From Echinococcus granulosus (taxonomy: Eukaryota; Platyhelminthes; Cestoda; Cyclophyllidea; Taeniidae), in assembly GCF_000524195.1 (NCBI RefSeq), contig NW_020170395.1:22454-81049 (forward strand): a DNA stretch of 58,596 nt, given 5' to 3'. The stretch's first letter is position 1. Each line of letters begins with the position of its first letter. Positions 3,001-55,303 of this stretch are shown one piece after another. Below the pieces are notes generated by a model. The model was given only the letters and a program-made list of their open reading frames with translations, had not been told where the DNA came from and did no database searches. Both the position numbers and the translations under genes were made by a program.

Positions 3001-3290
3001 AGTCTAGTATCCGGTGGCAGACTTCCACGCACTAGATTGGTCAAGTAGTGGTCCATCCTGCCGAGACAAATGCACGCAACAGATAGGCGACTTAACTATC
3101 AACGTAGGCTTTGATTGGGTTGGCATAGACTTGTGCAACGCCACACCTATGTCACCAGTCTCTTAACTCTTCTGCAGGCTTATGGAAGAGCCACTTAGCT
3201 TTGTATACTTTATAATTGTTTTTAGAGATAAAACGAAGGCTGTGGAAATAAACGATAGCGACCGATATGTGAGTGTCGAGAGAGGTGAAT
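1..3290. other. No supported gene
   Basis: Only short reading frames with no recognisable domain. One minus-strand stretch just below 2549 could be a downstream exon of the ankyrin-repeat gene: it follows a CAG acceptor, enters in phase 2 as the 3296 donor requires, and reads TIDTSSSSSPIDVDELPGF. Its pyrimidine tract is weak and no continuation with a good donor was found, so it is not annotated as coding. Confidence 0.5.
2142..2190. repeat. Imperfect GTC/ATC trinucleotide-rich tract
   Basis: A run of GTC, ATC and GTT triplets on the plus strand. Read on the minus strand it gives an Asp/Asn-rich stretch. It may be simple sequence or part of an acidic exon; neither can be decided here. Confidence 0.5.
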
Positions 3291-3295
3291 CTTAC

Positions 3296-8400: not shown

Positions 8401-8640
8401 TGTTTTTTAGAGAAGGTAAAAAAGTTGTTAAGCAGCATGTGAACCTAAATGCAATCCGACCGTTGCTAAAGCTGGACATTTTGCTTAGGCGTGCAAAAAC
8501 ATAAAAGGGAAATACGAATCTTTATTACTTATTTTTAATTCTGATTTTTGAGCAGCTTTAACTGTACTATGAATTTTTCTTTAGAATACGTTCTTTTTAA
8601 CCTTGAAGTTCATTTTCTTGTCTCTTTTACGCACCGCGTG
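5436..8640. other. Intergenic region between divergent genes; no supported gene
   Basis: About 3.2 kb with no domain-bearing frame and no RNA gene that I can recognise. It separates the start sides of two divergent genes and probably contains the promoters of both, but no promoter motif can be pinned down. Confidence 0.5.
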
Positions 8641-8696: not shown

Positions 8697-11600
8697 GTAA
8701 GGATTTCATACCTTGTTCTGCACTACGTCATATACTTCACTCTTTTTAAATCTTATTTTGGTTTTTAATTTTGTTGGTCAATGTGCTTGTAACCATGCAT
8801 TTGTGAAATTATATTTTGTGGGCTTCCCGCGTTCTGTTTATCTGGTAGCTCAAAAGCACAGTTTCTTCCACTGTTTTACCTCCGGTCTTTTCCCCTTAGA
8901 ACTCATGTTTTTTGCTTAATCTTGCTCTTGGGTCCTTTTGTAGTTCCTTCTTTGTGAGGTATAATTTAATTGCATTTATTAAATTTAAATCAACTTCCCA
9001 AGGCTAGTTAGTTTTGTGATAAATTCCTTCAAGCGCAGGTCTTTTTGATGTTACTATTAGAACATGGTACTTTTATCCGTATTTTGCTTTCCTTTGATAT
9101 TTTTCTTGACTGAACAATCATACCCTCTCGTCAATTTTGATGTATCTTCATGTGGCGTTGAAGTGAAACTTAGTATCCTTATGTTTATTCTAGTGTTTTC
9201 GTCTTTTTTTACTCAGTGCCAAATGGTTCTGCATTTTTGTCCTCTTTACGCTCTTTTATTACCATTAAGTCTTCCTTATTAAATAAAGATTTATATTCCC
9301 TTGTAGATTGTGACGGCTTTGTTTACTTTAACTCTTGCGAGTTGGGCCTCTGCTTCAGGTAAATTTTTCAATAACGAAATCTTGGGGTTTCTTCTACTTG
9401 TATATTTTGCAATCATGCTTGTTGCTGTGAAAAACATGCACCGTGCTTTATCTAATGCAAAACCATTTCCGAAATTTCCAAAATGGATAAATTTCCGGGT
9501 TTATTCGGGATGGATTGTTATACTTATTTTTATGCTCTCAGTGTTGGGGTAAACCTCTTCTCTATAATTACGACAAATTTTGTGAGACTCGAGTGTAACA
9601 CATACAATGAAATTCGTATCTTTTGTATTGCACTAATTTACTTCTATCACAAATTCACTTCTTGAGCTTTGTTAATCTGGCTGGTATCGCTTTTTTTCCT
9701 TCGCTTTTGGAAAATAACTAACTGCGAAATCTTATCCGCGTTATGAAAAATTTATTCTGACTCACTTTCCTATGGTCGTTATCATCGATTGGTGCTTTTG
9801 GTTTTTCCGGTAAATGTAGCTCGTCTGACTCTGTCGATCGTGTTTCTTGTCGATGCATTTCTATCCTCTGGTGCTCCCGTTCTCCTAGCCGTTCGTTCTA
9901 ATTCCTCCCAACATATTCGAATTTCCGCATATGTGCAAATTCTATTACCAACTTCAAATATGCAACTTTTCTGTTGCCGTCAATTGGGCTGATTTCACTG
10001 ATTCCAGTTCATTTGACCTCCTTTTCCGTAGCCGGATCAGTGACTCCCAAAGCGGAATGCAAATTTGACAAGGGTATGTGCGGCTGGAGAAGCGATCCAA
10101 CCAATCCTTGGTTAATCACTACTCTCAACAAGAGCACCCCACAGTTCCCGTTGCCAAACTCAAGTTGGCCTATCCTTTGCCTCTCAAAGGAGGTCCTGCA
10201 AGAAGCCAATTCAGGCGAATCCTGGTTTGCGGACGACGTTAATCCTTCGGTTTTTAAGACACCTCAATATCTTATCCGAACCCGTCTTCGCAGCCCCAGT
10301 GTGCCTGCCTCTCTCGGTCTCCGTTGTCTTACTTTCTCCTCCTTCTTCAATCTGGGCAGACGTGTGGGTGCTGCAAGCGGCCATTTGGGTCTAGCTCTTC
10401 TCTTACAAAAACCCGGGTGATTGTTCATCTCTGTCTAAACATCCTCCATCCAATAGGTAAAGGAAGAGAATGTGAATCAGGTTTTGAAGGGGAGAAAGGG
10501 GCAGAGTGGTTGTTTTAATCAGCTACCATCGGTCCTTTCCTTTGTATCTTTTCTCGATTTTGTGATTTGCTTTCCTCCCCCGCCTTGTCAGGCACAATTG
10601 TCGGTGTGCATACCTTCTATTCGCACACTTGTGGATGGGTAAACGAAGCAGCCAACTGACAGCATTGGTGGATGCTGAAGCAGCAGGGTAGTTGGTTTAC
10701 CCGCTGTCCACTGCAGTAACCTGCGAGACCACAAATGAGAAGCCTACAAGTCCATTTTGGTTTCCTCAAGTAAATATCGACGCAAGGAAAGTGAAACATC
10801 GTTGCTACTACTGAAGTGCATTTTTGGAGTCTCCCAGTTTCGGAGGCGATGGCCCTGCATCGCTTGCAGTTTTCTTCCCTTGGTCCTGCGGGGTTGATGA
10901 GAATGAACCCGTCACGATGGCAGGAAGTGTGACTGGCTGCTTTTTTCTATGGTCTCTTAATTTCGTTTTATGGTAACTTTTTGAAAGGCGAAGCTAACGA
11001 TCGCGATCGAATCGCTCTTTTTCCTCTTTCATTTTCACCAGGGTTGTCATGGTCGATCAAGCCGCTTGCTGTTTGCGATTTTGACGATGAAGAGACGTGC
11101 GGGTGGATGCATGAAGAAGCTGTATGGTCACACCGATGGGCGATTGAACAAGGCTACCTATGTCTTGCGGCTAAAGTGCCCTCCTCATCATCTAGAAAAA
11201 AGACTTCTTGGGTATCCAGCCTCTCCAGTGGGCAGAGGAAGCCCACTGCAGATGCTCATGTCCGATTTGCCAGTGCTCCCATTTCTGCTGTTGTCGGAGT
11301 AAAGTGTATCGTCTTTGTGTATTCTATTAATTTAGCACGAGGAAAGGCGTCCAACTTGGGCTCGTCTTTTGGCAGTTTAACATTGTTGCAGCAACAGGAA
11401 GGGTGCGTTTCCAATTCGTCTTCAATTTGAACCGTTACGTCGTTTCTGACTAATCTTCCCTGAAATTGAGGGACTTATCAGTGGCTCTTGCTCACTTGTT
11501 TCTTAGTCTACTCTCCAATCATCCACAATCGGTCTGTTGATTGTCTGTCGCTCATGTAATTCCGCCTTTCGGTACAGATCGCGCCCAACTTTATCGTTAA

Positions 11601-14600
11601 ACACTAAAGCTATCCGCCTTAAAATAAGGCTGATACTAAAACCACTTCTATGGTAACCGAATAATCCCTCGTTCTAAAAATCCTGTAATATTTTTTTATT
11701 CTGACTCGTGGTTCTGACTAATAGGTTTATCTTTATCTGAAGCGAGCCGAACGCGTCTCAATTGCACCAATTGTAGACCTTACAACCACGTGTTGAAATG
11801 GTTTGCCACTAGATTTCAAACCAGCCACCAGTTTCTCCTTGTTGACAATGGTGGTACAAGCTTTATTCCTCCATCTCGATGTTCTGCTTTTTCTGGTACT
11901 CCTTACTGCTTTGTTCCAAACCTTCGAGATTCACTTTGCAAAAAGTGTGGCTGAGCTGCCCTCTTTTGCTCTTCTTTTCCTCCTCCCTCCAAATTTGCCA
12001 AAATCTTCCGAAGCGCTTACAATGTGGGATTACGATGACGGTCGGATGCATGATATGGTGCCCTGGTAACTAACGGGCGGTTAAACGGCAGTCGCCGTCT
12101 GTCTTATGGCCTTAGTGCCCTTCTCGTTCTCCCTCGACATGGCGTGTTCCTTGTTTCCTAGTAGCTTAAGGCCAGTGCAAGTCCCTTGTAGGCATTCTTG
12201 TTCGATTCGACATTCTTCCTGTATGTGCTGTCTTCGAGTTAATGTCCCCTTCTCGAATATTCCATGAATCTCAGGTGTAGAAAGACTTTTGAGTCAAGTT
12301 GACTTTTTGGCAATCCGACATCGTTGTATCTTTTTTATTCTCCCTTCTACGATTTATTCTAGTGGAATATATAGCATTTTTACTGAACCTCGAGTCCACG
12401 ATTAAATAAGCGGAAGATTATGCGACTTGTTTTACCCTGTTTTTTGCGAATTTATTTTTGCCGGAGTTAGTAACTTGAATTATTCCTCTCCGGTGTGTGC
12501 TTGATCTTGCATTCCCAGTGTTGTCCACTTCCTCGTTTCAAGCATTTTCACGGTTTTGTATCTAATTTAACAGGTCTTTTTAAACCTCATTGCAAAACGA
12601 TGAAGATTAGGAGCTACCTCTTGTTTTTTCTCTCTCCCTCTTTCCTTCATTTTCGCTAGAGACGCCGCTCATCAAACCGGTGGCAGTTTGTAATTTCAAC
12701 GATGGCGATACGTGTGGTTGGATGCATGAGGGGGCTATATGGATGCATCGATGGGAAGCCGAGCAGGGTTATCTCTGTCTCAAGGCTAAAATGTCCACAT
12801 TTTCGTCCAAAATGAAAACTTCTTCATGGCTACCTGGCCTCTCCACTAGTCATCGAAAACCATCCGCAGACATTCGAGTTCGATTCACCAGTTCCCCTGT
12901 ACCGTCTGCCTTCGGGTTGAAGTGTATCGCTTTTGGTTATTCCATTGGTTTGGAGCGTGAGAAGATGGATCTTTCTGATGGGTCTTTCTGCAGTTTGGCG
13001 ATGTTGTTTCAAGAGGAAGGGTATTTCTTTATTAAACCATTGCTTTCAACTGGAACTTCCATTAATCCTACTTGGGTTTCTGATTCTATTCTGATCTGTC
13101 CTCATTCAAAGGCTTTAGGTATTTACACCACCTACTTTTCCATTCATTGTCCTCGGCAAGGCTGTTTATGGTCCCCCACTGCCTCTTTGATCGCCAAACG
13201 TTTAGGCTGCTGTTGAGAGGGGGTGAAATCTAGTCCCTGTAATAGAATTTGTTCCTTTTTGACGATGTCATGATTCTTCGGCCCTAATTTTGAGTCTCAA
13301 TCTGTATGCGTGAAGGGCTGCGAGGTTTGTTTTGCTCTTTCTTGACTCCATAGTTGCACGATTAAGTGAACTATCATGTTTGAGTTTCTGTACAGATTTT
13401 CGAAAGATCTCCAACAATATCTACCTGACTTTCGCTCCCATGAGTTCTTCTTTGGACCTCTGCTGTCTATATTTTAAACCGATTTTGCACGTTTTATAAT
13501 ATAGTGACCGGGAAGTGTCGACCAAACTTTCTTTCCTCCTAATTTTTCCTTCGTTCTCGCTAGAGTCGTCGTCGTTGCTCAAGCCACTGGCAGTTTGTGA
13601 TTTTGACGACGGAGAAACGTGCGGTTGGGTGCATGAAGAGGTTCCCTGGGCGTATCGATGGGCGATTGTACGGGATCGCCTCTGTCTCAAGGCCAAAGTG
13701 CCCTTAAACTCCCCGTCCAAAAAGATCTCTTCTTGGCTTCGGGGTCTTGCTATTGATCAATCAAGTGACGAAATTGATATCAAAGTTCGGTTTTCAAGTC
13801 CTCCTATTCCTGCTTCCTTTGGAGTGAAGTGCGTTGTATTTGTGTACTCGATGGATTTCGGGCGCGAAAAGACCTCGAAGCCTGTCCGAGCTTCTGGAAG
13901 TCTCTCCTTACTTCAGCAACAAAAAGGGTACTTTTTCATTCACATCCAAAGTGCTTGAAATGCCTTCACTTACCTTAAGGGGTTAGTCCTGTTTGAAAAT
14001 CTTGAATCCCAAGGTGCTAATGTGATTCTCGTCACTACATTCTAACTGATCATTCAAGGTGATCTGCGTGGGGAAAAGACTTGAGTATGGTTATTTTTAC
14101 AATTTCGTGTTATTAAAGCAAAGAAAAGTGTTTTTCGCTTGGTGATCGCTTCGATTTAAGGATTTTCTTGGTACTTTTGCGTTTTATGAGGAAATTATGA
14201 CCTGTCTGCAAAGGGGTATTGAGTACTCACATTATCTTGCATTACGTTTGCCATCTTCACAGAAGGTGTCCATTGTGTATTTCTCATTTTCATCGATGTA
14301 AAGTGGATTCGAACTGTTACTGAGAAGGTTTGAATTGAAATTTAGATGCTAGACGTTCTCCGTTCTTGGCAACGTTGTACCTTTATTAATTTTGATACCA
14401 CAGGTTACATTTGACTGTCTGTCTTTCTATTCGTTCGTCTCAATTGCATGACATTCTATTCGGTCTTGGCCTTGCAGCTACTGTTGATTCTACCTTCAAC
14501 TTTCGAGCAAATATATTGCGTTCTTTTGGGGTTAAGTTGGTTTTGTCCTTGCGCGTTTCCTCCAGTTTATTTATATTCCATGGTTCAGTTTTTCAGTTTT

Positions 14601-17600
14601 CAGTATCCATATCTTTATTTGTCTGATTTTTGCAGGAAATTAGCTGGTAAATTTTGTTTGAGCTGTTCTTTCTTCCCTTTCATTTCCAGTGGCAGCTTCC
14701 GATTTCGACGATGGTGATGTGTTTGGTTGAATGCACGGAAAAGCCACATGAGCACATCGATGGGCAGTTGAAACAGTCTCTTTCAAGCTCACTAGAAGTA
14801 CTTTAACCGAAAAGTATATTCCTTTTCTTTTATTAACCAATCAAGCGATGTAACTGATGTCAGTGATCGACTCATTAGTTATTCCTGTTTTACTATCCTT
14901 AGACTAAGGTATGTCGCCTTTATATATTCCATTGGTCATGGCCGCCAAAAGTCCCTCCAATTCTGTCGGAGCTTTTAGAAGTTTCTCTTTACGCCAGCAA
15001 CATCTGTCACCCCACGGGCTGTTGTAAGAGCAGTCTCGGTACCTGTCGTGATGGTTGTTTGATGTTCAGAGAGCACTCTTAGTGTGCTTTCGTTTTCTTT
15101 CCTTCCCACATGCAGATATCTTCATGCCGTTCCACGTCTGGACCTTCGAAGAAGGGGACATGGAAGATTGGTCTAATGACAATAACAACGGGCAGCAGAA
15201 GTGGCATGTTGGGACAACACACCTACCTTCCTCCTCCATCTGTGTGTCTGCAAAAGCTTCAGGAAAGAAGTCAAAAAAATTTTTCTCTACAACTTATTCC
15301 AAGAAGACCTCTTCTCGTCTCTGGAGTCCCAGCGTATCTGGCAGTTTTGGAATCAATTGTATTACCATCCAATATGCTATCGAGAGAGCCAGTCGTGATG
15401 CCAGTCTATCTCTGCTCCAGCAAAGCTCGGGGTGCTTACTTGTCTTCTCATGCCTCCTGGCTATCGGAAACTACAGCTGATAGTAGTCTGGCAGATTCAT
15501 CAAACTTGGAGACCAACACTCGCTCTTTTTTTGTTTCATGCAGAGGTTTCCTTCCAATCCAAGTATGGGCATTTGAGGACACTTTTGATGGTTGAAAGTG
15601 GCAGAGTGACAATTGCCATCAGGAATGGCGAGTTCTGTTATTGGAGAGCCGGCAAACTAGATCCATTATTTTCTCATTTACAGGTGTCTCTAATGAAGGG
15701 AAAGGGGTAGAAGAAATACCTTTGTCTATTAGAGAAGGCACTAGTGGCGGCTGAATTCGTCAGTCCGTCCATTCTCACATCTACTGCGATGCGTTGTTTC
15801 ACTATCCTTTATTACCTGGACGCCACTGTAAACTTACAGCTCCTTCATTAAGGTGGATCCTGTGTTTCCAGTCAGTGTGAAGTGTTAGCGTTGAATTTAA
15901 TTCCTGTTCTGGTTTTTGCCCATTTTTCACCTTTGCAAGCTTGGAGAGTTCCTTCGTCTTTTGGTCGACTCGTCGGTTTGGTTCAGGCAGTAGTGTTGGG
16001 ATTGGCACTTTTCGCCTGTTTTCCCTAATTGTTATCAGCCGTTTTCGTTTTTTTTCCTGTAGAGACCCCTCCGAAACCCTTTTTTGTGTGGACCTTCAAC
16101 GAAAACACAGGAAAGTGGACCAACGATGCCGCGAATTGGCATCAGAAATGGGAGCTTATTAACGGAGCCATTTGTTTGCGTAATGTGCCGTCCGAATCTG
16201 GAGAATCTGATGATACTATGTTTTGGTTATCCTTGAATACTGTAAAAGAAGACATAATCAGGAATACAAAGGCTCTGCTCTGGAGCCCGCCTATTCCACA
16301 AAGTGTTGGAATGCGCTGCATCACCATGGACTATTTGATAGACATGTTTTCTGAGAACTCTGAGGCCCATCGTCTTGCCATGCTGCAACAACAAACTGGG
16401 TGATTAGCCTCCATTTGAATGCTATTAGAATGAAGGGTACCCGTGGGTGCGGTTTTTATCCATTTCACTCGATATTTGGGGTTGTGATCCACGAGCATTT
16501 TCTTTCGCTTCCAAGATCCGCGCTTGATGGTTGGAAATTCGCTGTTTTCTGGTTCAAACTCTTAATCGGGTTATTTCATGATGATTTAGTAACAGTGCTT
16601 ATTAGTACCTGTATTCTTCGGCTTCTATAAGTCGTTTTCGTTTCGCCTCCTGTAGATACGCTTCCGAAACCACTTTTCATGTGGACCTTCGATGAAAACA
16701 TTGGCGGTTGGGTCAACGATATTTCGAATTATCACCAGAAGTGGGAACTCATTAATGGAGCTGTCTGCTTACACAACGTGCCAGCTGATACTAAAATTTC
16801 CTCTGGCGGTATGCCCTGGTTTTCTGCTAATTCAAGGAAGGCGGATAAGGCAACCCGGAATCCAAAAGCGCCATTATGGAGTCCTCCTGTTCCACAAACT
16901 GTAGGAATGCGTTGCGTCACGATAGATTACAACATCAGTTTTAACGGCGTTGAGTCTGGATCTTACAATCTTGCCTTGCTTCAACAACAAGACGGGTGAT
17001 TATATTCAGTCTAAAGTTTCCTCGATTTGTCACTTGTTCAATTCTCATCCATTCCTTTCTCCTCACCTCCGGCATTGTGAGGTGTTTTTTTGCTTTGATT
17101 GAACTGGTGGAAATTTTTGTTCAATAAGAATCCAGAGTCCCGTGAATGGTACTGAAGGTCAATAATTCATTGTTAGTCGACATTCAATCAGTTATTTAGG
17201 TATCTATCCTTCCATTTGCATATAGATTTTCGGTTTTGATGACGAAGGTAGTCTTTTTCCTGTCCTGATTATGAATTGATTATTTCATGGTTTTTGTACA
17301 GCTTGTTTTTCGTATTCAATATTCTCTATCATCCGCTTCAGTTTTGCCTCTGGTGAACTTGTTGTGTTTGTACCTTTGATGAATCTATGCGTGATCGGAC
17401 CAACGATCTTCCAAATTGGCATCAGAAGTGGCGTCTGTGAGGGGTTTAACTGTTCCTGTGATATGCCTGCTAAGCCTAAAATGAGCTTTGAACTTGCACC
17501 CTGGCTTCTTTTTGGTGATATAAAGGAAGATAAAACTATGAAGAACGCAAAAGCCTTTCCCTGGAGTTCCTTCCATTCCACAAGCCACTGGAGTGCGTTG

Positions 17601-20600
17601 CAATCCATGCGCTCTTCGAAGTTTGTAACTCGATTTTCGTCTTGTTAACTGAAAGTTCCTTTTTCGGTACCGCAGTGATGATTTTGACGTCGGTTTTCTC
17701 CACATTCTTCTCGTCGTTTTCGTTTTGTTCTCTGTAGATACTCCTCCGAAACCGTATTATGTGTGGACCTTCACTGAAAATACTGGTAAATGGATCAACG
17801 ATATTTCGAATTGGCATCAAAAATGGGAACTTATGGATGGTGCTGTCTGCTTACGCAATGTACCAATCGAAACGGCAACGCACCCTGAAGATATACCATG
17901 GCTTTTTGAAAATGCTGAAGTTAAAGATAGAATCGCTCGAAATTCAAAGGCTCCTCTCTGGAGTCCACCTATTCCACACTCCCTTGGGATGCGTTGCATT
18001 ACGATGGACTACAAAATCACTGCTGAGACCGAAGATACCGATACTTATAGTCTCGCCATGTTGCAACAACAGGATGGGTGAATACCTTCATTAGTAAACT
18101 CTTGTTGAGCTGTCGTTAGTGCTCTGACTTTCTCAACTGAAACCTCGCTTCTTTCGATTCAGTGGCTGAAACTTTTTTTATTGGTCAGAAGGCATCCTTC
18201 TGACCATCGGCTTTTGATGTCTGTAACGGTCCAAACTCTTTCGGGCTTTCGGATGCGATAGTTGGGCCTATTATCGTCCGTTTTCTCCAGTTTTTGTCAG
18301 CCGTTTTCGTTTTATCTCCTGTAGATGTTCCCCCGAAGCCATATTTTGTCTGGACCTTTGACGAAGACACAGGCGGTTGGGTCAACGATATTTTGAATTG
18401 GAATCAAAGGTGGCAGCTCATCGACAGCGCCATCTGCCTTTGCAATGTGCCAGATGAACCTAAAAAGTACACTAAAGCTCTCCTTTGGCTCTCTTTGGTG
18501 GACAAAACGGATAAAAAAGTGGCAAACAATGCAAAAGCTCCTCTCCGGAGTCCACCTATTCCCCAAGCCGTTGGAATGCGTCGCATCACGATGGGTTACA
18601 GCATCAGTGTTGATCCCGTAGAATCTGCACCGTACAGTCTTGCCATGTTGCATCAACAAGTGGGGTGACTAAATTCATCCTAACCTTCAGTCGGTTTATC
18701 GCATTAAGTCTCCAGTTCCAATCCATCCTCACTCCTGATCTACTAGTCCAATTTTTCTAATTACCACTTGAGCTTGTTGATCCGTGAAGGTGATTTTCTG
18801 AGTTACATACTGGTTTGTTTGTCCTTGGTGATCGGAATCGCAAGTAATCTTGGTAAAGATCCTCGTTGGTGCTCTCTGTCGCGATTTTGGTGATTGGACC
18901 TCAGTACCCCCTGGTTCCTATCAGTCCTTTTCTTTTGTCTTCTCTAGACGCTCTTCCAAAACCATTTTTCGTTTGGACCTTCAACGAAAACACAGGAAAG
19001 TGGACCAACGATGCTGCAAATCAGCGTCAGAAGTGGGAGCTTATGAGTGGAGTCATTTGTTTACACAACGTACCGATTGAGATCGAAGGGTCCAGTGATG
19101 ATATGTCTTGGCTTTCTTTGACTGATGAAGGAGAAGAGAAAGCAACCAAGGGTGCGAAGGTTCTTTTCTGGAGTCCACTCATTCCACACGTTGTTGGAAT
19201 GCGTTGTATCGCAATGGACTACCGCATTGGCGCCGATTTTGAAGTAGCTGAGAAGTATAGTCTTGCCATTTTGCAGCAGCAGGACGGGTGATTGGATACG
19301 ATTCTATTTACCTTCAATGGTTTTTTCCTCACTTAGTCTTCCGGCTCCTTTAGTCTTTACTCTGACATTCCGAAGTATCTTTGCTTTCTGATCAACTCAA
19401 TGTTGGTGGATTTTCACTCACTGAAGTGACTTAGTCTTGAAATGGAGTCGTCGATTATTGTCGGTCAGGTGCTTCGTGTTATGTTTTCCTCCAGCTGTTC
19501 CTGTTGCGTTTTTGTTGTTCTCCGACTCAAGTATTCTCCAGTATGTCAGCCATTTCCGTTTTGTCCCCTGTAGATTCACTTCCGAAGCCCTATTACGTGT
19601 GGACTTTCAACGAAAACGCTGGTAAATGGGTCAACGATCCTGCCAACTGGAATCAGAAATGGGAACGCATTGATGGAGCCATCTGTTTGTACAATGCACC
19701 GATTGAACCTGAAACTCCTTCTGACGACATGCCTTGGCTTTCTGTTAAGTCGCAAAAGGATGACAAAACTGATAGGCGCACAAAATCTCCTCTCTGGAGT
19801 CCACCTATATCAGAAGCTGTTGGAATGCATTGCATTACGATGAACTATCTCATCCATGTCGGTTCTGTAGTTTCTGGCGCCTTCGAACTTGCAATGTTGC
19901 AACAACAGGAAGGGTGATTGCTCTTAGTTTAGAGTAGTGTCAAACTACTGTTTGCATTGAAATTTCCAGCTCGTTTTACCTTTATCCCTGGTCCTCTGAG
20001 TTGTCGATTCCCTTGGAATTGTCGGTTTTGGTTGTTTTTTTTTTTTTCGTGAAGACGCTTGTTTTGCGCTTCCATTTCCTACTATTTCTGTTGAGAGGCT
20101 TTTCATATCCTTTTCAACATGTATTGTCAAACGGTTTGATGCGTCACTGGTGTAGTTTACTTTTCCTCCAGTTCCTGCCTGTTGTTTTCGGATTAACCCC
20201 CCCCCCCACTCCGTGACCATGTAGCGCTTTCACCCAAGGTGAAAAGATGGCAAATGGGTCAACGATACTGCTAACTAGAATCAGAATTAAGACCCAATAT
20301 CTCCTTTCGCAATGTGCCTTGGCTTTCTTGGAAAGATAGGAAGGAAAACAATATTTTTAAGAATGTATGGGCTGTTTAAAAAGCGTCGTGTCACCATGGC
20401 CTGTCTCATCAATATCGGTTCCATGTTTTCTAAGTTCTAGCCTTTCCACGTTGCAATACTATTGGCTACTTGTCGTCATTAATGAGTCTTCTAGTCTGAT
20501 TTGTTTATTCCTGAAGTCGCCTTTCTAAAATTTATGCTTTAATTTTCCGCTCCTGTTCACTGGAACGTTTCTACTTTCATATTAAATGTGAAGTGATTTT

Positions 20601-32600: not shown

Positions 32601-35600
32601 TGTTTAGTGAACCAAAAGCCCTGTGGTCAACAAATACTACAAGTGGTGCTTCTACTTGGTCCAAGGCCGTAGTTAGTTTGAACTCCGGCGAAGCTGTCCT
32701 GAATGGTGATTTTCAGGTATCAGTTGTAACACGTCTCCTGTCATCGATGCATGCAAAATAAGTAACTTATTCAGCTCCCATTTACCTCTTTTGATCTCCC
32801 CCTTCTTTTCCCTCTGCTACCTACCTAATCTTATCCTCTGAGTCCTTGTTTCCTCTACCTATTTACTATTTACAAGTTGTTAATTCTTTAATCAAAAAGT
32901 CAAAAGTCCCTCGTTATTTTCATGGTTTTTTTTGTTAGCACTTTCAATTTCATGTCATTTGTAACGGAGGCCTTTGACACACTACAGGTTCGACGTCCAG
33001 TTAGCATAGTGTCATTGTTGATCTGTCTTCTGTGACGAAGAACCATTTCCGGGCATTTAGTGTAGCCCTACCAGGTGGTGGATGTTCATGAAACTCGATA
33101 GTGAAATCGGTCGACTTAGAACTCTAATTCTGCACCGAACTTTCAGGGTTTGAGACTTTATTATGCTCCTTTTAGCCTTATATCACGATTGAGTTGCTCT
33201 GTGCCCTTTTCTTGTGCCTCTTCATCTCTTCACTGTCATTCCCTCATCTTGTGGCAATATCACTGTGGCTGTTAAAGATGCACGATATTGGTTTACTATG
33301 AACAGGTCGTTTACCAAGACAGTAATTGACCGATTGAGTTTAATTTAAAATCCTGCAACTTATTCCTTACTTCCTCGCTTTCCCTTGCTTTTTCCATTTT
33401 TTCTTCTAATGCTTTTTTTCTCTTTCGTCTCAACTCAGTCGTTGCGTTCAAGTTATTCATCCGCTAACTGGGAAGCCGTCAAGTTTTTGGTGGGTTGTTC
33501 AGCCGTCTTTTGGTAACACGCTCCATTCTCTGATAGCTCCAATGATGATCTCTGGAATACTACAGGTTCAACGTCAGATTGGCAAACTGTCAAAGCCGAC
33601 TTGGCTTCTGCGGCTAAGAGTGATTTTCAGGTATTTGTCGTGACCTTAGTTCAAATGCAATTGATTGGCTAATCTAAGAGCGCATCTTAATTTAGCTTTC
33701 AAAATTTTACCTGGTTATTCTTCTCATTCTCAGTTAGATTTCTCTCATCTCGAAATCCTGTTCTACTTATTCACTGTGGGCGGCTTTTCTTTCGTAATAG
33801 GCTTTGGACTGCTTTAGTACGCTTCATCGCAATGTAAAATCCAACATTAAGTAGAGAAGAGTTGTAGATGCTCCCCTAGCGGTCTGTTTGGTGTGCTTCT
33901 CCTTCAATCCTGGCTTTGCTCTTTTTCGTCCGTTTTCCTTCTCCCCCTTCTCATGTTAATTCCACTTTGCTCCCACAGATCCTGCCATGAATTTGTGGTC
34001 CCTGAAACTGGTAAAAAGATCCAATATTGGTAACCATTTTTTAAGATTCCATTAACACAATTCTGTGCGTTTAGTGAACCAGAAACTTTGTGGTCGGAAA
34101 ATGCCACAAGCGGTGCATCCACTTGGTCAAAGGCCGTAGTTAGCTTGGATTCTGGCGAGGGTTCAGTGAAGACCGATTTTCAGGTACTAGCTGCTACTCT
34201 TCCGAACAAACGTTTTGCAAAAGTAATGAAATTCGCCAAGTCCATTTCAAATAAGGTTATGAATGTTGAATCACCGCTTTTGATCTATTCCTTCCTCTTT
34301 TCCCTTTCTTCTCTTTACCTGATATTTCATCGTCTTCCTAACGCCTTGTTTCTCTTATCAATCCAGTGACTGCGTTCAAGTAGTCCATCCTGTGACTGGA
34401 CAAACTTCAAGTCATTGGTGGGTTGTTTTGTAGTCATTGGGTAACACGCTCGGTGTCTTGCTAGCTTCAACCAATATCTCTGGAACACCACAGGTTCGAC
34501 GTCAGGTTGGCAGATGGCCAAAATTGATTTGACTTCTCTAGCGAAGAGCGACTTTCAGGTATTCTTCGTGATGTTGCTGTCCTATTTTGTCTAAAGACAT
34601 CACGTTGATTTGTCTACCAATCTCCCTTACTTATCTGGGCACTTTTTACATCCATGGCTTTTTGCGTTCAGTATGCAGACTTCTTTTCCTAATCATTTTA
34701 GTGCAGGCTTCCGTTTTTCGACTTCTCTTCGTAGCATTCCCATCACAGTTACGATCTATCTTGGAGCTCGCTCAATATCATTTTGCTTCTCATATTTCCA
34801 CGTAACATTAGTTTGTCTTCCCCGTATTTCAGTTGCTATTTTGCCTCTGGATCGCGCAAAATTCTACCAATTAATGTCGGTGTTCACTTTTTATATCTTA
34901 ATTTTGTCTGTTAATTATCTTTTGACAAGATCTAATTGCAAAACGTGGGGAGCAAGCTGTCTCGGAGTGGATGCTTGTATAACATCATCATCTTTGGCTT
35001 CTTACTTATCTGTTTCTTTACTTTTAAATATTCTTCCCTAATGCTCTATTTCTTCGGTTAACTCAGTCGCTGCGTTCAAGTTCCCGATCCGAAAACTAGG
35101 AAACCGGCAAGCCTTTGGTGGGTCGTGTGACCTTTAGATAACACTCAACTCCTTGCTAGCTTCAATGATGATCTCTGGAACATAACTGGCTCTACGTCAG
35201 GTTGGCAGACTGTCAGAGTCGATCTTACTTCTGTAGCAAAGAGTGATTTTCAGGTATTTGTCACGAGCTTGGTCCCCTCATAACAGACAGATATTACTAA
35301 CTTCCTGCATTTTAAGGTCCTCTACTCATTACACTTATCTTTTATAACTTTTGACGATGTCATTCACCCACATTCGTGACAATCTTAAATGCTTCTCCTG
35401 GTTACTGTCGGTTCGTTTTGCTTCTGTTTTGATTTACCTTCATTCTCTTCAGTTGTAGTATCTCTTTACTTCTATCTCATTGTAATGCTTTATCCTTTCA
35501 TGCATCGTATCTTCACTGTTCGAAAGTTCTTTAGAATCAATGTGCAGGTTTTTTTTTGGAATTTTACTAACTTCAGTGAGACAAGAGGAAATGGTTATTT

Positions 35601-38600
35601 GAGTGTCTGGTTTGATCCATCAAACTGAAGTCCTCACTTCTTACCTGTTTTCTGTCCTTTTTTCGTGCCTTTCCTATCTTTCCTAATCCACTGCCTCCCA
35701 TCGATTTAGCGACTGCGTCCAGGTTGCCAACCCGAAAGGTGGCAAGGCCACAAGTGTTTGGTGGGTCATTCTGTGGTCGTTAGATAACGCGCCTAACTCC
35801 TAATAGCTTCAGTGAGGACATTTGGAATACAACTGGCCCAACATCAGGTTGGAAAACCGCTAGGGTGGACTTGACTTCTGTGACAAAGAACGATTTTCAG
35901 GTATTTGTGGTGGCTTTGGACTCCCTAACTACTGGAAAGTATGCGTCACTAAAATTTTTTGGGAATTTTAATGCGTCTTGAACAAGGTGCTAGCTATAGT
36001 TACGCCTTTTCAACATCTTACTTAAAAACCCTTCTGTTGAGCTGCTTAGCGCTCATGTATCATGATCGCCTTTGGTTGAGTAATCGTGCAAGGCCGCAAT
36101 TCCCACGAAAATTAATTTGACCCCTGCCTGAGTGTGCCAGTTTGGAGAAGTGTGCTTCTGCCAAATCTCCTACTCCCTTACTGTCTTCTTTTGCCTTTCA
36201 TTTCCTGCCCTTGAATCCTTCTTAACACTTCATCTCTTCTGCCACCTCAGTGACTGTGTTCAAGTTGCTAATCCGAAAACGGGAAAACCAACAAATTTCT
36301 GGTGGGTAACTTGAGGCGCTTTGGATAACACACTTGATTTCGCATTAGCTTTAATGATGACCTCTGGAACACAACAGATTTATCACCGGGTTGGCAAACC
36401 ACTAAGGTGGATTTGACGTCTGTGGCCAAGAGCGATTTCCAGGTACTATTCGAGACTTCACCGTCTCACCTTAGTTTACGTGTTTATTTGACTAATCAAA
36501 GGATACTTTTTATTCCATTGTACCACTTTTCAAGCACCCTCATGCGCATCTTTTAAACATATTCCTTTAATTTATCTAACCTTCAGTTCCGTCTCGTGTT
36601 TTCCCACTGAACCCACATCAGTCCTTTTTAATCATGTGCTCATACGGTTTCGTGGCAGAATCATTTTAGTTCTCAATCCATGCAGTGTTCTTAAGGACCT
36701 TCACTCTGTTCTTGCATTCCAGCATATTTGACTTGCACTACTTTGTTTTGCGAAGGTAGTTTTCTATCTATTGTAATCGCCTTGGTTTCTTCAATATTAT
36801 TTATTGCCACACCTGTTTCAGAGACTTTGTCGGGAAATCTATAATCCTCTAGTCATCAGAGTGATTCTACATTTATTTCTGATTCCGTGATGAATGCTAA
36901 TCGTTGAACCAGAAATTTACCATCCTTCGTGGTTTTAAAGTCGCAAAGATTTCTTAGCGTAAAGCATCGTCATTCTCGTGCTATTAGTCCTTGGATTGGT
37001 AGTTGAGAAGGTAGTGCGGGTAATGGTGTGTCGGTGTTTAACCATCTGCTTTTCTATCTTCTACTTCTCTATCTTCTCTCCTTTTTTCCCAATAATATTC
37101 TGTCCCTTTTGTTAATTTAGTCGCTGCGTTCAAGTTCCCGACCCGATGGGTGGAAAAACTACAAGGGTTTGGTGGGTTTTTGACGAGTTTAGGATAACAC
37201 GCTCAATTCCCTGTTAGCTTCAATGACGATCTCTGGAATGCCTCTGGTCCTGCGTCGGATTGGCAGAATGCTAAAGTCGATTTGACTTCTGCAGCAAAGA
37301 CCGATTTTCAGGTATTTAGCGTTGTTTCACCTTAGATGGCGTCAGTCAAGCCAATAAACGAAGCAAATACATTTTTCAGGCAGCATTTATAGTGTAATTA
37401 CATTTCGTTAATAAGTTTACGTCGTGTCGTAAAATCGTACTAAATTGTCCCTTCTTTCCGGCTTGTTTGGGCTCCTTCTCCTTTGACTCTGCCCTCTTTT
37501 TACTTCATTCTCTTTCCTTTCTTTGCCGCATTTCTGCTATGCTTCGCTCTCCACAGGTCCTGCAGTGAATTTGTGAACCCTACGACAGGTAAAAGGATTC
37601 AACACTGGTAACTAGTTTCCTTGGATTTCATTTAATCGCTCTCATCTGTTTAGTGAACCAGAAACTCTGTGGTCGGCGAATTCAACTAGTGTTTTTTCGA
37701 CTTGGTCCAAGGCTGTAGTTAGTCTGGATTCTGGTGAATCCGTCGCAAAGAGTGATTTTCAGGTACCCGTCAAAATTTTGCTATCATCTTCGATGGGCTA
37801 GTAGAGGCAGTTAAGTAGAACCGCTAAAAAACTATTTCGGTGACATTTGTGTTTTTTGTTATGCTTTGTCACCTTGCCATTCTAGTGGCATTCCTTCTGT
37901 TCTGTTTCTTGTCTATTTTTGTCGTTTATAGAGATATGTTTCGGTACTTCATTATGCTAAAATGTCATGCTCAAACTATTCTTTGACAGTCGTGCCTCAT
38001 CAGTAGTTTCGACTCGTGAAAAATTGTCACTTTTTCCCTAAATCATGCCTTTCCTGAATTTCTGAATCCATTTTCAATTGGTTAAACGGAAGATTTGGCT
38101 TCCTCTGAAGCCATAAAGCGACTTACAATATAATCTAAAAACATCCCTGTTTGTAAAATAGCAGCTCTAATCATGAAGCTTGTATGCTGATTTGGATGGA
38201 TTAGATGTTCATGCCGCTAAATAGCTCTATTACTGTTAAGTAGTATTGAAGATTAAAACGTGGGATTGCTTGATGCTGTCTTCCTCAAACCTCCTTCCTC
38301 CTGCTCTTCTTTGATCTTTTGACTTTTTTTTCCACCCCAACTTTAATCCCATTGAGTTCTTCCGTCTGCTCTTTTAGTAACTGTAAAAATGTTCGTGATG
38401 CCGACACCGGTGAAATTCACATCATTTGGTAATTTTCCGCCTTCATTTAAACTGGCAAATTTGCAGTAAACCCAACCAATTGTGGTCTTCAGTCGACACC
38501 GAGGGTGCGCATTCAGTATGGACACGGGCTTCTGTTGACTTAGGCAGTAATACGACCTCAGATTTTCAGGTGAGAATAAGGATCTCAAGCTCATTATTAG

Positions 38601-41600
38601 ATGGAATAAACAAATTATTGGAGAGGGTGAAGTAGCCAACATGCTGATTGATTGTTCATTTCCCACCTCTTTCTTTTCTCGCTTCTGTTCTTGTCTTTCC
38701 TTAACTTACATCCCCCTCATTAATGCCTACTTTTCTCATTAATACAGTAACTGTGTTCAAGTTATCCATCCAAAAACAGGAAAACCTTCAAGTTTTTGGT
38801 GGGTTTTGACCATCCTTAGATAGCTTATTGGATAACCCATTAGCTCCAACGATGAGCTTTGGAATATTACTGGCCCTACGTCAGGTTGGCAAAGTGTCAA
38901 AATCGATCTAACGTCTCTGACAACGGGAGATTTCCAGGTATTCTGCACGATTTTTGCTGGCTTTCTATTAGTTGTGTGTCCTCAGGAGGTTAACCGAGAG
39001 GCCGTGCCTAGTTATCACTTCCAGATTTTGAAAATTCTTTCGTCATTGCTTCTGATTATAGGTAAACTTCCTGGCCCTGATTAGTTTTCCTTTGTAGAGC
39101 CGTAGTAACTGCTGAATTATACGGAAAACTGGGCTTTTCTTTAAGCTTCATTCTCTTTTGATTTTAATTTTAATCTAGTTCGCTTCGGTAAAAATATGTA
39201 TGATTTGACCGGGGTGAATTTTTTTCACATATAATGATTCCCAATGTTCCTTTTCATACTCATGCTCATCGCAACCTTACAGAAAATGGTGAAATATTGA
39301 TATAGATACTTGGTTTGGATAGATTGGTGTTCCCAAAATTACGTGACCGTCTTAATCGAGGGTGACTGGAAACCTTGAAATGTGGTCGCTTGATGTTTTC
39401 TTTCTCCTGCTTTCTTTTTGACTCTTTTGATACTCCTTACTTTCCCTCCTTACTCTCCTGTTTGCTCTTTCAGTAACTGTAAAAAGCTTTTTGATCCCGA
39501 AACTGGTGAACTCCATACCATATGGTAATTTTATCGCTTTCATTCCAACCACGAGCTTTGCAGTAAACCCCTTCGATTGTGGTCTTCAACTGACATCATA
39601 GCTGGGAATCCCGTTTGGACACGAACTTCTGTCAGTCTAAGCAATACTTCGGCCTCAGATTTTCAGATGAGAGTTGACGGCCCTAGTTCACTGTTTTCGG
39701 CCAAACAAACGAGCTAAGATTGATCATTTCAGCGAAGTTACTTCGTCAAGGGTATCTCAACTGGCAAACTTGAGTCTGTGTTGAATCAACTCTTTCAATC
39801 CCTTCTCCCCTACAAACCCTTTCCTTCTATCTTTGTTCATTTTTTCTCTTACCTATTTCTTCCATGAATTTAGTCGCTGTATTGAGGTTGCCGATCCGAA
39901 AACTGGAAAATCGTCAAGGCATTGGTGGGTTGTTATATGGTCTTTAGGATGACAGGTTCAACTCTCTATTAGCTTCAATGATGATCTCTGGAGTACCAAT
40001 GGCTCAACTTCGGGTTGGCAAGGCGTCAAAGTCGATCTGACTTCCGTAGTGAAGAGCGACTTTCAGGTATTAGTCGCAGCTCTGCTGTCTTGCCCTGGTT
40101 CATTGTATTTGGATGGGGTTGTTACTCGACAGGTCTTTTGGTGTCAGTGTTCGTCAAATTACATCACTTTGTTCAACCTCCCCTATGACTCTGTTTTTCA
40201 TTTTTCCAGTTCTTTTTTCTATTTATTCCACTTACTTTAGATTTCTTTCTTTGTGTTCGTTCTTTCCTTCAGCCTACTTGGTTTCACTATTCTTCCATTA
40301 TTCCTTTTACTGTTATTGTTAGGTTCACTTTCTGCTTCCTATTAATCTTGTCCTGACATTTCGATCACTGTAATCAGTAAATTAGTCGAATCAAACATCC
40401 CAGTTTTTATTTGATCCCATTTAACTTATCATTTGGAGTGCTTCGATAAAGCTGTTACTGACTTGGTTCATGACGTTGTCTCTCTGCACTCCGAGTCTAT
40501 TGTCCTCATATTCAATAAGGAAGCACTGTTTATTCGGTAATAAGTTACTTTGGCGTGGACAGTCGCGTGTTTGTGTTGATTTATCTCGCTCAATCTCTCC
40601 TTTACTATCTTTCCTTGCCTTTTCCACCTTGCTCTCTTTCCTGACATCCCTACTCTTCTTTCAATCCAGTGGCTGCGTTCAAGTCCCCCATCCGATAACC
40701 GGAAAGCTGTCAAGTGTATGGTGGGTCTTTTGACAACAGAAATTCTCATTATTAATAGTTCCAATGATGATCTGTGGAATGCCAGTGGTCCCACTTCGGG
40801 TTGGCAGAAGGCCAAAGTTGATTTAACTTCTGCGGTGAAAAGCGATTTTCAGGTATTTTATCCAACTTTACTGTGATCCATGTAGCTAGTCAAAATAGAA
40901 CTCTAAGTTCTGTCATTAATTTCGTATACCAGTGTTAGAAAGTTATTTAGGCCTCTGGTTAGTCATTTGGTGCACACTTGCTCAGATCATTTAAGCCTCA
41001 TCATTCCGACTTTTTTATCACCTCAACTACCCTTGTTTTCCCGATGTTTCTATCCTGACTGCTTTTCAATGAAGCTGCGCGAAGTCTGAACGAAGTTTCC
41101 ATAAGATGCAGGAGGGCTACTTAAGTTTATGGTTATATGCTCCATTTTGCTTGTGTGGATTTTCCCCTTTCTCTCTTCTACTTCCGCTTATCATTTCTCG
41201 CTTTCCTGTCTTCATCACTAATAGTGTGTTTCTTCTGTCACTCCAGCGACTGCATTCAAGTTATCCATCCAAAAACCGGGAAGCCTACAAGTGTTTGGTG
41301 GGTTTATTAGTGGTCTCTAGTTCTCATTCATTAGCTCTAATGAGGACATCTGGAAAACCACTGGGTCCACGTTGGGCTGGCAGAATGCCAAGATCGATTT
41401 GACCTCTGCCGCGAAGAGCGATTTCCAGGTAGTCAGATACCCTAACCGACAGACTAAAGTAACCACTCATCTGCGCTTCTTCTAACCAACTGGTATCTTT
41501 CTCCCCTCTTTAATCTCTGGCCTTGCTTTACTAACTCATCTTCTCTTTCACCCATTCCCGTCTTAGTATTTGATGTGTTTCCGTAATATTCTGCTCGTTT

Positions 41601-44600
41601 TAAGGACTAAGGCAGCTTCAATGGATATCCTAGAAAAACGCATAAACTACTAGCTAATTATTTACTTCTCTTTTTGCATTCGCTTTATAACTACACTCCC
41701 TTTCGTATATCTTCTTTCCTTCTATGTTATTTTTAGACTAAATCCCATATCATGTCGCCTTGTGGGAGTAAGACTTTCATTTTTGGTAACTAATTGTGAG
41801 CCTGTACAATATAGTGTAGCCTAGTGAATGAGCTGGACCATTTCTTTAGCGGTTGCTGCATCACACACCCATTCACGCACCCGCAAGCAGCCTGTAGACC
41901 AGTTTGGGTGACTCAGCGCAGCCCTCTTTGCTTACGGCTTAACTACCACTGTTGTTAGCGTAACTGTAGCTCTAGGAGTAATTACATCCACATTGTCTAC
42001 AGGTTGTCATTACGTCCTTTCTATAACATCCAGCAACGCAGCTATAGCATCAGGTCTTGACGTTTAATTCCCTTTTTCTTTCTTTAGATTATTCTAGAGG
42101 GAGTTATTCCTGCTGGCTATCCAGATGCAAGAATCTGTGTGGACAATATCACCAGCTATACGGTGCCCTGCAGCGGTGCGTTGCTCTTAATTTACTTTGA
42201 CTTGGATTTTCTACAAACTGTAACTCATAAGGCACTGGAGTCGCGGAGGGGCTAAGCGAGCAGTGGCATAGGTCGTGGAGGCTGATTCGCTCAAACAGAT
42301 ATATCATGTTATTGCAAAGCTGCCCACCCTTTTACACACTTCTAAGTGGCTGTATCTGATGGTTTGTTTCACATTGATTTGTTTGCGAGTGTCGGTCGAA
42401 TCCATGATGTGCATGCTGCGTGTGCCACTCAGTTCTGTCGTACGGGTTTGACCTGGTCTGTTTGGACGATACTTTAAGCGTAATTTACACTACTTTTTTG
42501 ATTGGAAAAACAGCGCAATTTTTATACATTGTTTTGAAATATTCGTCCATTTTATGGGTGCATTAACTCTTGCGTAAAAGTCGGTCATATTTTCTGGACG
42601 ATCAAATATAATTGGGTATTTTTTAGCCTCCTGCACCTTATTTCCAGTAATTGATTTTCCAAACTTTTATTTGATGTCTTTTTGGGAGAAATTTTAGAAG
42701 AAAGCGTGTGATGTTATTTCAAATAGTATTCATTGAGGCAATTATTAATCGGTTGAATCACTAGACCGATTTAGCCGTCTGGAATGCGAGGATTTCAGTT
42801 GACCGGAGCTCTCGAGTGTGACGCGTTTAATTGGCACGCGTCAAAGTGGGCATCAAAGGATGATTTGCGTATTTTTTTAGGCGACGTTAAGGCACTTCTG
42901 GTAAACAACATCGTGGATATGTCTACCCAAATAATTTATTCGTTTATTGAATGTCCGTAGTCGCCCAGATAAAGTCCGTAAATAGCGATCAAAACATTAA
43001 CTTACGCGCACTTAATCATAATGAGTTCGGTGGAGAGATTTTAGGAAAGCGTACTTTGGTGGCGTTTTGAGGATTGAAAGCAATTATCGGCAATAGTGGA
43101 TCACGGAACATAGGATGGAAAGTCGGTAGTTTTTTAACACGATAGACTTCGTCGGATAGGAAAAACGGACAATGTGGCAAGCGAACTAGCTCTGGAATTG
43201 GTAGATGAGATTTTGCTAAGGCAAAGCATCTGCTGCTTACGAAAATAGTGCTGTTTAAACTGATGAATCCACATTTAGACTCGGGCTATGCATAAACAAA
43301 TTGAAGTCCCTTCAGGGAACTTAATCACTTTTTGCCTATCGCTGGTGATCCTTTGCCATACCTGGTACTCCACAATGGCAGAATTTGAGCCATCTTCAAG
43401 GTATTGAAGTGTTTAACGTAAACTGCTGGATTGATAGAGATCTGTATTGTCGGTAGCTTATTCGTGCCCCGGTGGAATTATTACTTTTCCTATTCTTGTT
43501 TGAGCAGTGGTAGAATCGGCTTTGGATCTAAAATAAGGGGTTTTGCATATCTGTACCTTTGTAAATCCAGAACAAGGATCGCTTTGAAAGCGTTAAAACA
43601 TTCCTTGCAAATTGCTGACTGAAATTTGTCTGCATTGTTGATGGCTTGGGCATTGACAACTGACTTATTCCCTGCCCCTATCCTTGTTTGCACTACAACT
43701 TCATCTCCGATATGTTTGTCTCTGTAATGACAATGTCTTCAATGTATTTCAAACTGCCAGTGTAAAAGTTACCTGCATCGATGATGACTTAGAACATCCA
43801 CTGGCGCGTTACCTACTGTGCTATTTCTTGTTTAAAGTGTTAAAATCACTTTTTGGTCTAGAACGTGGTATTTCATGCTTAGTCCTCTGGTATATCAGCA
43901 GCAGAACTGAAGCTATCTTCAAGAAATTGTATTGCTTGCAAATTGGCGATGTAAACAAACTTCTGGATCCACTAAATGCGACGATTCTTGAGGTGGTTAA
44001 TGCTCTGATCCTTTTCTTCCCTCTGCACCTCAAGAATTGGAACCCAAACCGGTGAAGCCCTCGACCGCAACGTACACTTGGGCGCAGTACTTCGGGATCA
44101 CCTTCATTGTTGCACTGGCCTTTGGTCTGCTCATCCCTGTACTCTTCCTTGTGGGTATCATAGTGGTGTGCCGACGGCGTCATGCCTATCGCCACCACCA
44201 CTGCATGACCAACGGCTCTGGCGGTGGCATGAGCGTCAGCGGTGCTGGCAGCGGCAGCTACGGTAACAGTAAGCTCTTCTCCGCCAACCTCTGGCACTAC
44301 ATCGGGGGCAAGGAAGTCGCTGATGATCCATTCGCAGAACACACCGCCAGCATCCACCGCCCTCCTTTCTCTGCCCACAAATTCTCCGATGGCACATTGG
44401 GCATGCGTGGAGATGGAACACTTGATCTCCCTGATGTTGTCATTCCTTCTGGTGCGTGCCACTGTTATCCTAATAACTCTATGAATGCCACCTAAACCAT
44501 TTATTAGATTGTGGCCGGGTTATTCCCAAGATTATTATAAGGCGTGCCAGTCTAGAATTACGCCATGGTAGCTGAATCGTAGTCAAGTGTGCCTTGAAAA

Positions 44601-52960: not shown

Positions 52961-52967
52961 GAGTCCA

Positions 52968-54280: not shown

Positions 54281-55303
<1,023 letters not shown>

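Follow-up and report, generated by a model that had tools for sequence, protein, structure and literature searches.

We analysed a stretch of 58,596 nucleotides (nt) of Echinococcus granulosus DNA (NW_020170395.1:22,454-81,049, forward strand, from an assembly of 103.6 Mb; hereafter the window) and found on its plus strand the gene of a membrane receptor with two tandem arrays of alternative exons, encoding a MAM domain. A signal-peptide exon is followed by 21 intact alternative exons (the N exons, N1 to N21), 19 two-exon cassettes (C1 to C19, each consisting of an exon a and an exon b), a closing exon, a transmembrane exon and four tail exons. An initial annotation of the window had proposed this architecture, and our analysis confirmed it: the sequence itself shows every exon with its borders, the phase rules that link them and the MAM domain that they rebuild when joined. 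Our reading of the locus, to which we assign a probability of roughly 0.87, is that each mRNA takes one N exon and one cassette and would thereby encode one MAM ectodomain out of 378 on a constant anchor and tail.

Every exon was pinned with its splice borders (Table 1). The signal and closing exons were both present at the positions claimed for them, and the 21 N exons that had been counted (10032-29447) were all found to be open, bordered by AG and GT and 1 mod 3 in length. They are spaced 247-1281 nt apart and share 13-68% pairwise identity (median 27%). The 19 cassettes were likewise all located (30542-41428); exon a is exactly 51 nt and exon b 1 mod 3 in length in 19 of 19, the inner introns measure 37-48 nt, and pairwise identity is 27-76% (median 39%). 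The donor after exon b is GT in 18 of the 19 cassettes and AT (39667-39668) in the otherwise intact cassette 16, so that 378 cognate forms (21 x 18) are predicted and not 399. In Hymenolepis diminuta, a cassette related to cassette 16 (63%) is joined to the closing exon. The transmembrane exon and a tail had also been predicted, and we followed the tail to a stop codon at 50245, further than the initial annotation had reached. On the minus strand of the window there was no match to the N or cassette exon profiles at a domain expect value (E) of 0.5 or lower, and 20 copies of the window generated by a second-order Markov model gave no match to these profiles below 1e-9. Genome searches, in which exons were searched singly and match counts are lower bounds, returned at least 14 matches with N12, at least 4 with N16 and at least 4 with the Pfam MAM model, all of them inside the array, while the search with the closing and transmembrane part matched only these two exons and no other copy in the genome. 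A tRNA scan and an Rfam scan of the window returned nothing.

The exons of each kind share their phases: the signal exon runs from phase 0 to 1, N exons from 1 to 2, exon a from 2 to 2, exon b from 2 to 0 and the closing exon from 0 to 1. Splice combinations were enumerated on the actual sequence with canonical sites and scored for an open reading to the common stop. As shown by this enumeration, all 399 combinations of one N exon with one cassette read through in frame to the same stop; the product of 378 forms (399 with cassette 16) given by the initial annotation was exact. Combinations of two N exons were never open (0 of 3990), nor were those of three (0 of 1330) or four (0 of 5985), the last two sets being scored with C19 only, and two cassettes gave 0 of 3591. 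Omission of the N exon (0/19), omission of the cassette (0/21) and skipping of exon b (0/399) also closed the frame in every case.

In order to be read as a domain, the N exon, the cassette and the closing exon have to be taken together. In three of five first pairings the spliced product matched PF00629 from position 1 or 2 to position 157 of 158 (54-55 bits against a cut-off of 26.4; E ~1e-14), which makes the domain, previously called MAM-like, a true MAM domain. With C18 as the cassette, 17 of the 21 N exons matched Pfam MAM at E <= 0.01, the pairing N6+C18 being common to the two test sets, and the full profile was also matched in three of three fluke models tried. By themselves, four N exons matched the MAM profile, covering only positions 1 to 83-94 of 158. 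MAM was the sole Pfam domain above cut-off in the spliced products; they showed neither an enzyme nor a further known extracellular domain. The closest solved structure by sequence was neuropilin-1 (E 6e-5, using a profile built from 38 models of flukes and tapeworms), and structure prediction of the domain was of poor quality. MAM domains have a jelly-roll fold and carry a conserved cysteine pattern. The first cysteine pair is kept in N1-N4 and N16-N21 and absent from N5-N15 (11/21), and C2 is without both cassette cysteines. N9 has an arginine at a cysteine position that at least 90% of the N variants keep.

Relatives of the receptor were collected in three protein searches, which gave 76 proteins (labelled P0001-P0076); the named organisms among them are tapeworms and flukes. 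In one search, limited to relatives sharing exact 5-residue words, 67 of 67 proteins were from parasitic flatworms. Two E. granulosus entries, A0A068WJF3 ('MAM') and ECG_03129, match the constant part with 100% identity. As judged from these sequence matches, the gene was found not to be peculiar to this genome and to be present across tapeworms and flukes. We sorted 74 of the models by profiles derived from the E. granulosus variants and from fluke models; four had no unit, and the other 70 comprised 50 with one N and one cassette, 9 with a cassette only and 11 with several units of one kind. All 36 fluke models that start with one of the recognised constant signals had one N and one cassette, or 36 of 37 once a later hit, P0075, was included. 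These counts agree with the Dscam-like rule of one N plus one cassette that the initial annotation had put forward and that is present in the reading frame. The 35 signal-bearing fluke models with a complete cassette represent 34 pairings of 17 N with 17 cassette types, where types are clusters at 75% identity pooled over species. Pairings are mixed, the same N occurring with up to four cassettes and vice versa; in S. margrebowiei, N type n12 occurs with two cassettes and cassette c8 with two N types. The phase-1 junction is also kept: the residue that follows the signal is A, G, V or D in all 37 fluke models and, in E. granulosus, A, D, E or G for all 21 N exons, with GNN codons throughout both sets.

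The signal exon is without an ATG of its own, and its start codon would come from a trans-spliced leader or from a short upstream exon. Flatworm spliced leaders end in an ATG that is usable as a start codon, as described in PMC3510090 and PMC12582326. Spliced to the signal exon, a leader ATG would yield MIVTALFTLTLASWASAS in frame; an N exon, which expects phase 1, would put the same ATG out of frame. An alternative start candidate is an ATG directly before a possible GT donor (9064-9066). The leader patterns searched for were absent from the genome, either exactly or with up to three mismatches; as the patterns are possibly incorrect, or the assembly possibly lacks the leader gene, the leader start is put forward as a proposal. 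At its other end, the protein has a single constant tail, conserved between tapeworms and flukes in sequence comparison, and through its PPGY and PVLPPRR motifs every variant would address the same set of partners. At the CAGCAG acceptor of tail exon 3 (47972-47980), the database models P0001 and P0004 differ by one glutamine.

The age of the variants was examined in a tree of the N exons (21 tapeworm and 17 fluke rows; midpoint root, several long branches), in which tapeworm and fluke exons are intermixed, with a minimum of three label changes required by starred branches. Three groups are mixed: DPRD, with N17, N20 and N21 (support 97/93, starred), a group with N16, N18 and N19 (94/92, unstarred) and a group with N1-N15 (98/97, starred). 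Cassettes, compared over few columns, separate by tapeworm and fluke origin (90/84). The three mixed N groups, two of them well supported, suggest that variants are older than the split between tapeworms and flukes. Counterparts are recognisable in other tapeworms, for N21 (81%, next best 30%) and C18 (85%) in Hydatigera and for C17 (85%) in Taenia solium. Between close paralogues, the ratio of nonsynonymous to synonymous divergence (dN/dS) has a median of 0.12-0.23 in seven of eight variant groups. Running counter to this, the three-member C_gamma group of cassettes reaches a median of 0.58, and in one of its three pairs dN exceeds dS; dS is also near saturation (medians 0.5-2.1), 70 of the 80 pairs could be used, five of the eight groups hold one to three pairs, and N1, N5, N13, N21, C1, C2 and C4 are outside the groups. 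The picture that the sequences give is of an old set that has been maintained while some members were born and others died, with degenerate N-like stretches scattered between intact exons.

Several observations weigh against the choice of one N and one cassette. The E. granulosus case rests on genomic sequence, and both splice-site use and strict exclusivity are predictions there. Skipping exon a leaves the frame open in 399 of 399 combinations, as does joining an exon a to a later exon b (3591 of 3591), so frame alone does not force cognate use of a and b; the fluke model P0034 skips exon a. The fluke counts are of database protein models, and the profiles used to sort them were partly built from those fluke models. 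Two of the five first pairings (N17+C7 and N20+C1), and four of the 21 N exons with C18, gave no Pfam MAM match. Finally, 13 of the 76 models chain several N units or several cassettes. They include P0001-P0003, which are entries of E. granulosus and E. multilocularis, Rodentolepis P0076 with eight cassette units, and Trichobilharzia P0075, a signal-bearing chain with three N and one cassette. Taken at face value, chains such as P0001, P0002 and P0076 would describe one long protein stringing together many N units and cassettes, which we regard as very improbable: canonical sites leave none of the chains of two to four N exons (those of three and four scored with C19) or of two cassettes in frame, and the signal-bearing fluke models are, with that one exception, one of each. 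The E. granulosus chain model enters exon a of C10 at an internal, off-phase acceptor (after ...TGCGTCCAG), thereby losing the first cysteine, and overruns the b donor of C10 into the intron (VFVVALDSLTTG). Because of this use of an acceptor within exon a and of the intron after exon b, we think that the chained models are probably artefacts, predictions that dodge the phase conflict; the intron and acceptor evidence was read for E. granulosus. At the opposite extreme, each N exon or cassette might be a small gene of its own with its own promoter or spliced-leader acceptor, given that a leader ending in ATG could in principle provide any acceptor with a start (PMC3510090 and PMC12582326). We consider this the least probable of the readings, since that ATG is out of frame on the phase-1 N exons, which moreover have no signal peptide at their start, and since the genome search found a single closing and transmembrane set.

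A reading closer to ours is that one N and one cassette are indeed spliced together but that few favourites are used, the rest being slowly dying copies. The degenerate N-like stretches and the lost donor of cassette 16 speak for it, but it appears unlikely when 21 of 21 N exons and 19 of 19 cassettes are open, dN/dS is low in most groups, counterparts are kept in other tapeworms and the fluke models use many variants. As for what the one-of-each choice would serve, the diversity could face the host, through antigenic variation or varied host ligands, and not recognition among the worm's own cells. The 67 of 67 relatives from parasitic tapeworms and flukes, in the search by exact 5-residue words, are in favour of this, while the variants look old and mostly constrained, unlike fast-changing antigens; overall we are rather doubtful of it. 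Because the variants look old and constrained, a fixed recognition repertoire is favoured over a fast antigen race, and we tentatively suggest, at somewhat under even odds, that the receptor provides a fixed repertoire of labels or adhesion specificities at the surface, all feeding into a single conserved cytoplasmic tail.

For one N plus one cassette, we propose that the pre-mRNA would span the entire array, that the signal exon would be joined to one N exon, that N exon to one cassette and the cassette to the closing exon, and that products with two N exons or two cassettes would be out of frame and hence lost. The cassette with its tiny inner intron would likely behave as one unit. We infer a regulated choice, as opposed to clean-up by reading frame and nonsense-mediated decay. 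In Dscam-type splicing, at least one cluster relies on docking-selector RNA pairing, and simple steric hindrance cannot span gaps as long as those between the N exons. We compared 226 windows of 30 nt from the three constant introns with the flanks of 10 of the 21 N exons and 8 of the 19 cassettes, using 318 windows from non-array introns as controls. The best docking windows of the four sets reached z values of -2.3 to -2.7 against -2.5 to -4.2 in the controls; with no excess of pairing over controls in these windows, a docking-selector mechanism as in Dscam is not supported by this comparison, a point against our reading.

The closest known system is arthropod Dscam1 (Drosophila, Anopheles), which, like the flatworm locus, has clusters of tandem alternative exons from each of which one is taken in combination, so altering part of an ectodomain on a constant membrane anchor. 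Members of the Dscam family carry tandem immunoglobulin and fibronectin type III domains. Here we found two tandem clusters, each of homologous exons, between constant exons on one strand, with phase shared within each cluster; MAM was the one Pfam domain above cut-off in the spliced products, and the tandem immunoglobulin and fibronectin type III domains were absent. By its sequence layout the locus would thus work like Dscam-type splicing without being a member of the Dscam gene family, and by its profile match it belongs to the MAM family PF00629. It differs from Dscam1 in the domain used (MAM instead of immunoglobulin) and in the phylum, in that its two clusters jointly build one domain, in that the second cluster consists of two-exon cassettes with tiny inner introns, and in that no docking-selector pairing was found in the constant-intron windows. 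Receptor tyrosine phosphatase mu also carries a MAM domain, as does neuropilin; in the flatworm gene, the MAM domain is the variable part, and no other known extracellular domain or enzyme accompanies it. Echinococcus and Schistosoma entries named 'MAM' or 'MAM domain-containing protein' (A0A068WJF3, ECG_03129, A0A5K4F7P9 and others) are the same gene, and no record name refers to the exon array. To our knowledge, the use of a large combinatorial exon array to diversify an ectodomain is an arthropod speciality. PMC4015677 gives 31 920 splice forms for mosquito Dscam and discusses schistosome micro-exon genes and polymorphic mucins as parasitic flatworm proteins diversified at the RNA level. 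In contrast to those, the array exons here are large domain parts under a strict one-of-each frame.

The initial annotation knew of no such locus for a MAM-like domain, and in a literature search, with preprints outside its scope, none of the listed titles and abstract openings names it. The terms 'MAM domain' and 'Dscam' are absent from the main text of PMC8587495 and PMC4203478, on splicing in Echinococcus and Schistosoma, and none of the locus-related terms is present in PMC8894454; fluke genome annotators may have noticed the array. A combinatorial, mutually exclusive array is a known kind, from Dscam, whereas the domain, the phylum, the two-choice design of a single domain and the cassette form appear new to us. 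If the reading is true, a second, unrelated array in flatworms would show that evolution can reach this logic repeatedly and with different folds. At only slightly short of an even chance, we would go further and see here a second large splice-coded receptor repertoire, acquired by tapeworms and flukes independently of arthropod Dscam, as old as the tapeworm-fluke split and, through two one-of-many choices that make up one MAM domain, offering each genome hundreds of surface identities on one signalling tail for cell or tegument recognition. The organisms concerned are parasites of people and livestock, and the gene is a membrane receptor with a conserved tail. Since the Echinococcus database entries are without N exons and have chained cassettes, the gene's expression counts, and antigen studies on it, were probably misinterpreted. 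The locus also raises the questions of whether each cell holds a stochastic repertoire, whether ectodomains bind like with like, and how exclusivity is achieved without visible docking-selector pairs.

Table 1. Exons of the receptor gene and N-like stretches, in positions of the window.
Feature	Position	Strand	Remarks
Signal-peptide exon, constant	9307-9358	+	52 nt; entered in phase 0, left in phase 1; reads IVTALFTLTLASWASAS; own ATG absent
N1 alternative exon	10032-10416	+	
Degenerate N-like stretch, likely relic	10606-10875	+	E 4e-7; whole open exon not located
N2 alternative exon	11042-11402	+	
N3 alternative exon	12660-13020	+	
N4 alternative exon	13564-13927	+	
N5 alternative exon	15116-15431	+	
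Possible N exon relic, weak	15554-15827	+	E 0.14, 1e-3
N6 alternative exon	16063-16399	+	
N7 alternative exon	16656-16995	+	
Degenerate N-like stretch, likely relic	17357-17620	+	E 5e-6; whole open exon not located
N8 alternative exon	17738-18077	+	
N9 alternative exon	18325-18664	+	
N10 alternative exon	18948-19287	+	
N11 alternative exon	19574-19913	+	
N12 alternative exon	20672-21011	+	
Degenerate N-like stretch in two pieces, likely relic	21841-22172	+	E 4e-3, 1e-5; stronger piece 21987-22172
N13 alternative exon	22293-22638	+	
N14 alternative exon	22979-23315	+	
N15 alternative exon	23698-24034	+	
N16 alternative exon	24446-24737	+	
N17 alternative exon	25321-25675	+	
N18 alternative exon	26328-26607	+	
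N19 alternative exon	27054-27357	+	
N20 alternative exon	27862-28219	+	
N21 alternative exon	29138-29447	+	
C1	30542-30743	+	a 30542-30592, b 30638-30743
C2	30904-31099	+	a 30904-30954, b 30997-31099; cysteines absent
C3	31211-31402	+	a 31211-31261, b 31300-31402
C4	31883-32064	+	a 31883-31933, b 31974-32064
C5	32513-32716	+	a 32513-32563, b 32608-32716
C6	33439-33630	+	a 33439-33489, b 33537-33630
C7	33979-34183	+	a 33979-34029, b 34075-34183
C8	34367-34558	+	a 34367-34417, b 34465-34558
C9	35067-35253	+	a 35067-35117, b 35160-35253
C10	35710-35900	+	a 35710-35760, b 35807-35900
C11	36251-36442	+	a 36251-36301, b 36349-36442
C12	37121-37311	+	a 37121-37171, b 37218-37311
C13	37557-37762	+	a 37557-37607, b 37654-37762
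C14	38378-38569	+	a 38378-38428, b 38467-38569
C15	38748-38937	+	a 38748-38798, b 38844-38937
C16	39474-39666	+	a 39474-39524, b 39564-39666; b donor AT, not GT
C17	39874-40066	+	a 39874-39924, b 39973-40066
C18	40670-40852	+	a 40670-40720, b 40759-40852
C19	41247-41428	+	a 41247-41297, b 41335-41428
Closing exon of MAM domain, constant	42088-42175	+	phase 0 to 1
Transmembrane and juxtamembrane exon, constant	44035-44451	+	
Tail exon 1, constant	46082-46291	+	
Tail exon 2, constant	47836-47915	+	
Tail exon 3, constant	47975-48226	+	CAGCAG acceptor; P0001 start would be 47978
Tail exon 4, constant	49970-50245	+	PPGY and PVLPPRR motifs, stop codon

Between C5 and C6 there is also a faint cassette-like stretch (32981-33049, E 0.08), possibly a relic. 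Upstream of the receptor (1-8500), the minus strand holds exon-like frames that look ankyrin-like by eye, with a Pfam match in 0 of 2 frames tested. Downstream, an open frame at 52967-53543 is without a Pfam match and looks, by eye, similar to the C-terminal part that the Spirometra model P0007 carries fused to the receptor tail; the frame is probably a conserved neighbour gene. A Ras-family GTPase gene (54365-55303) follows the receptor on the same strand; its first exon matches PF00071 (E 5e-20), and the gene is Rap1-like by eye.

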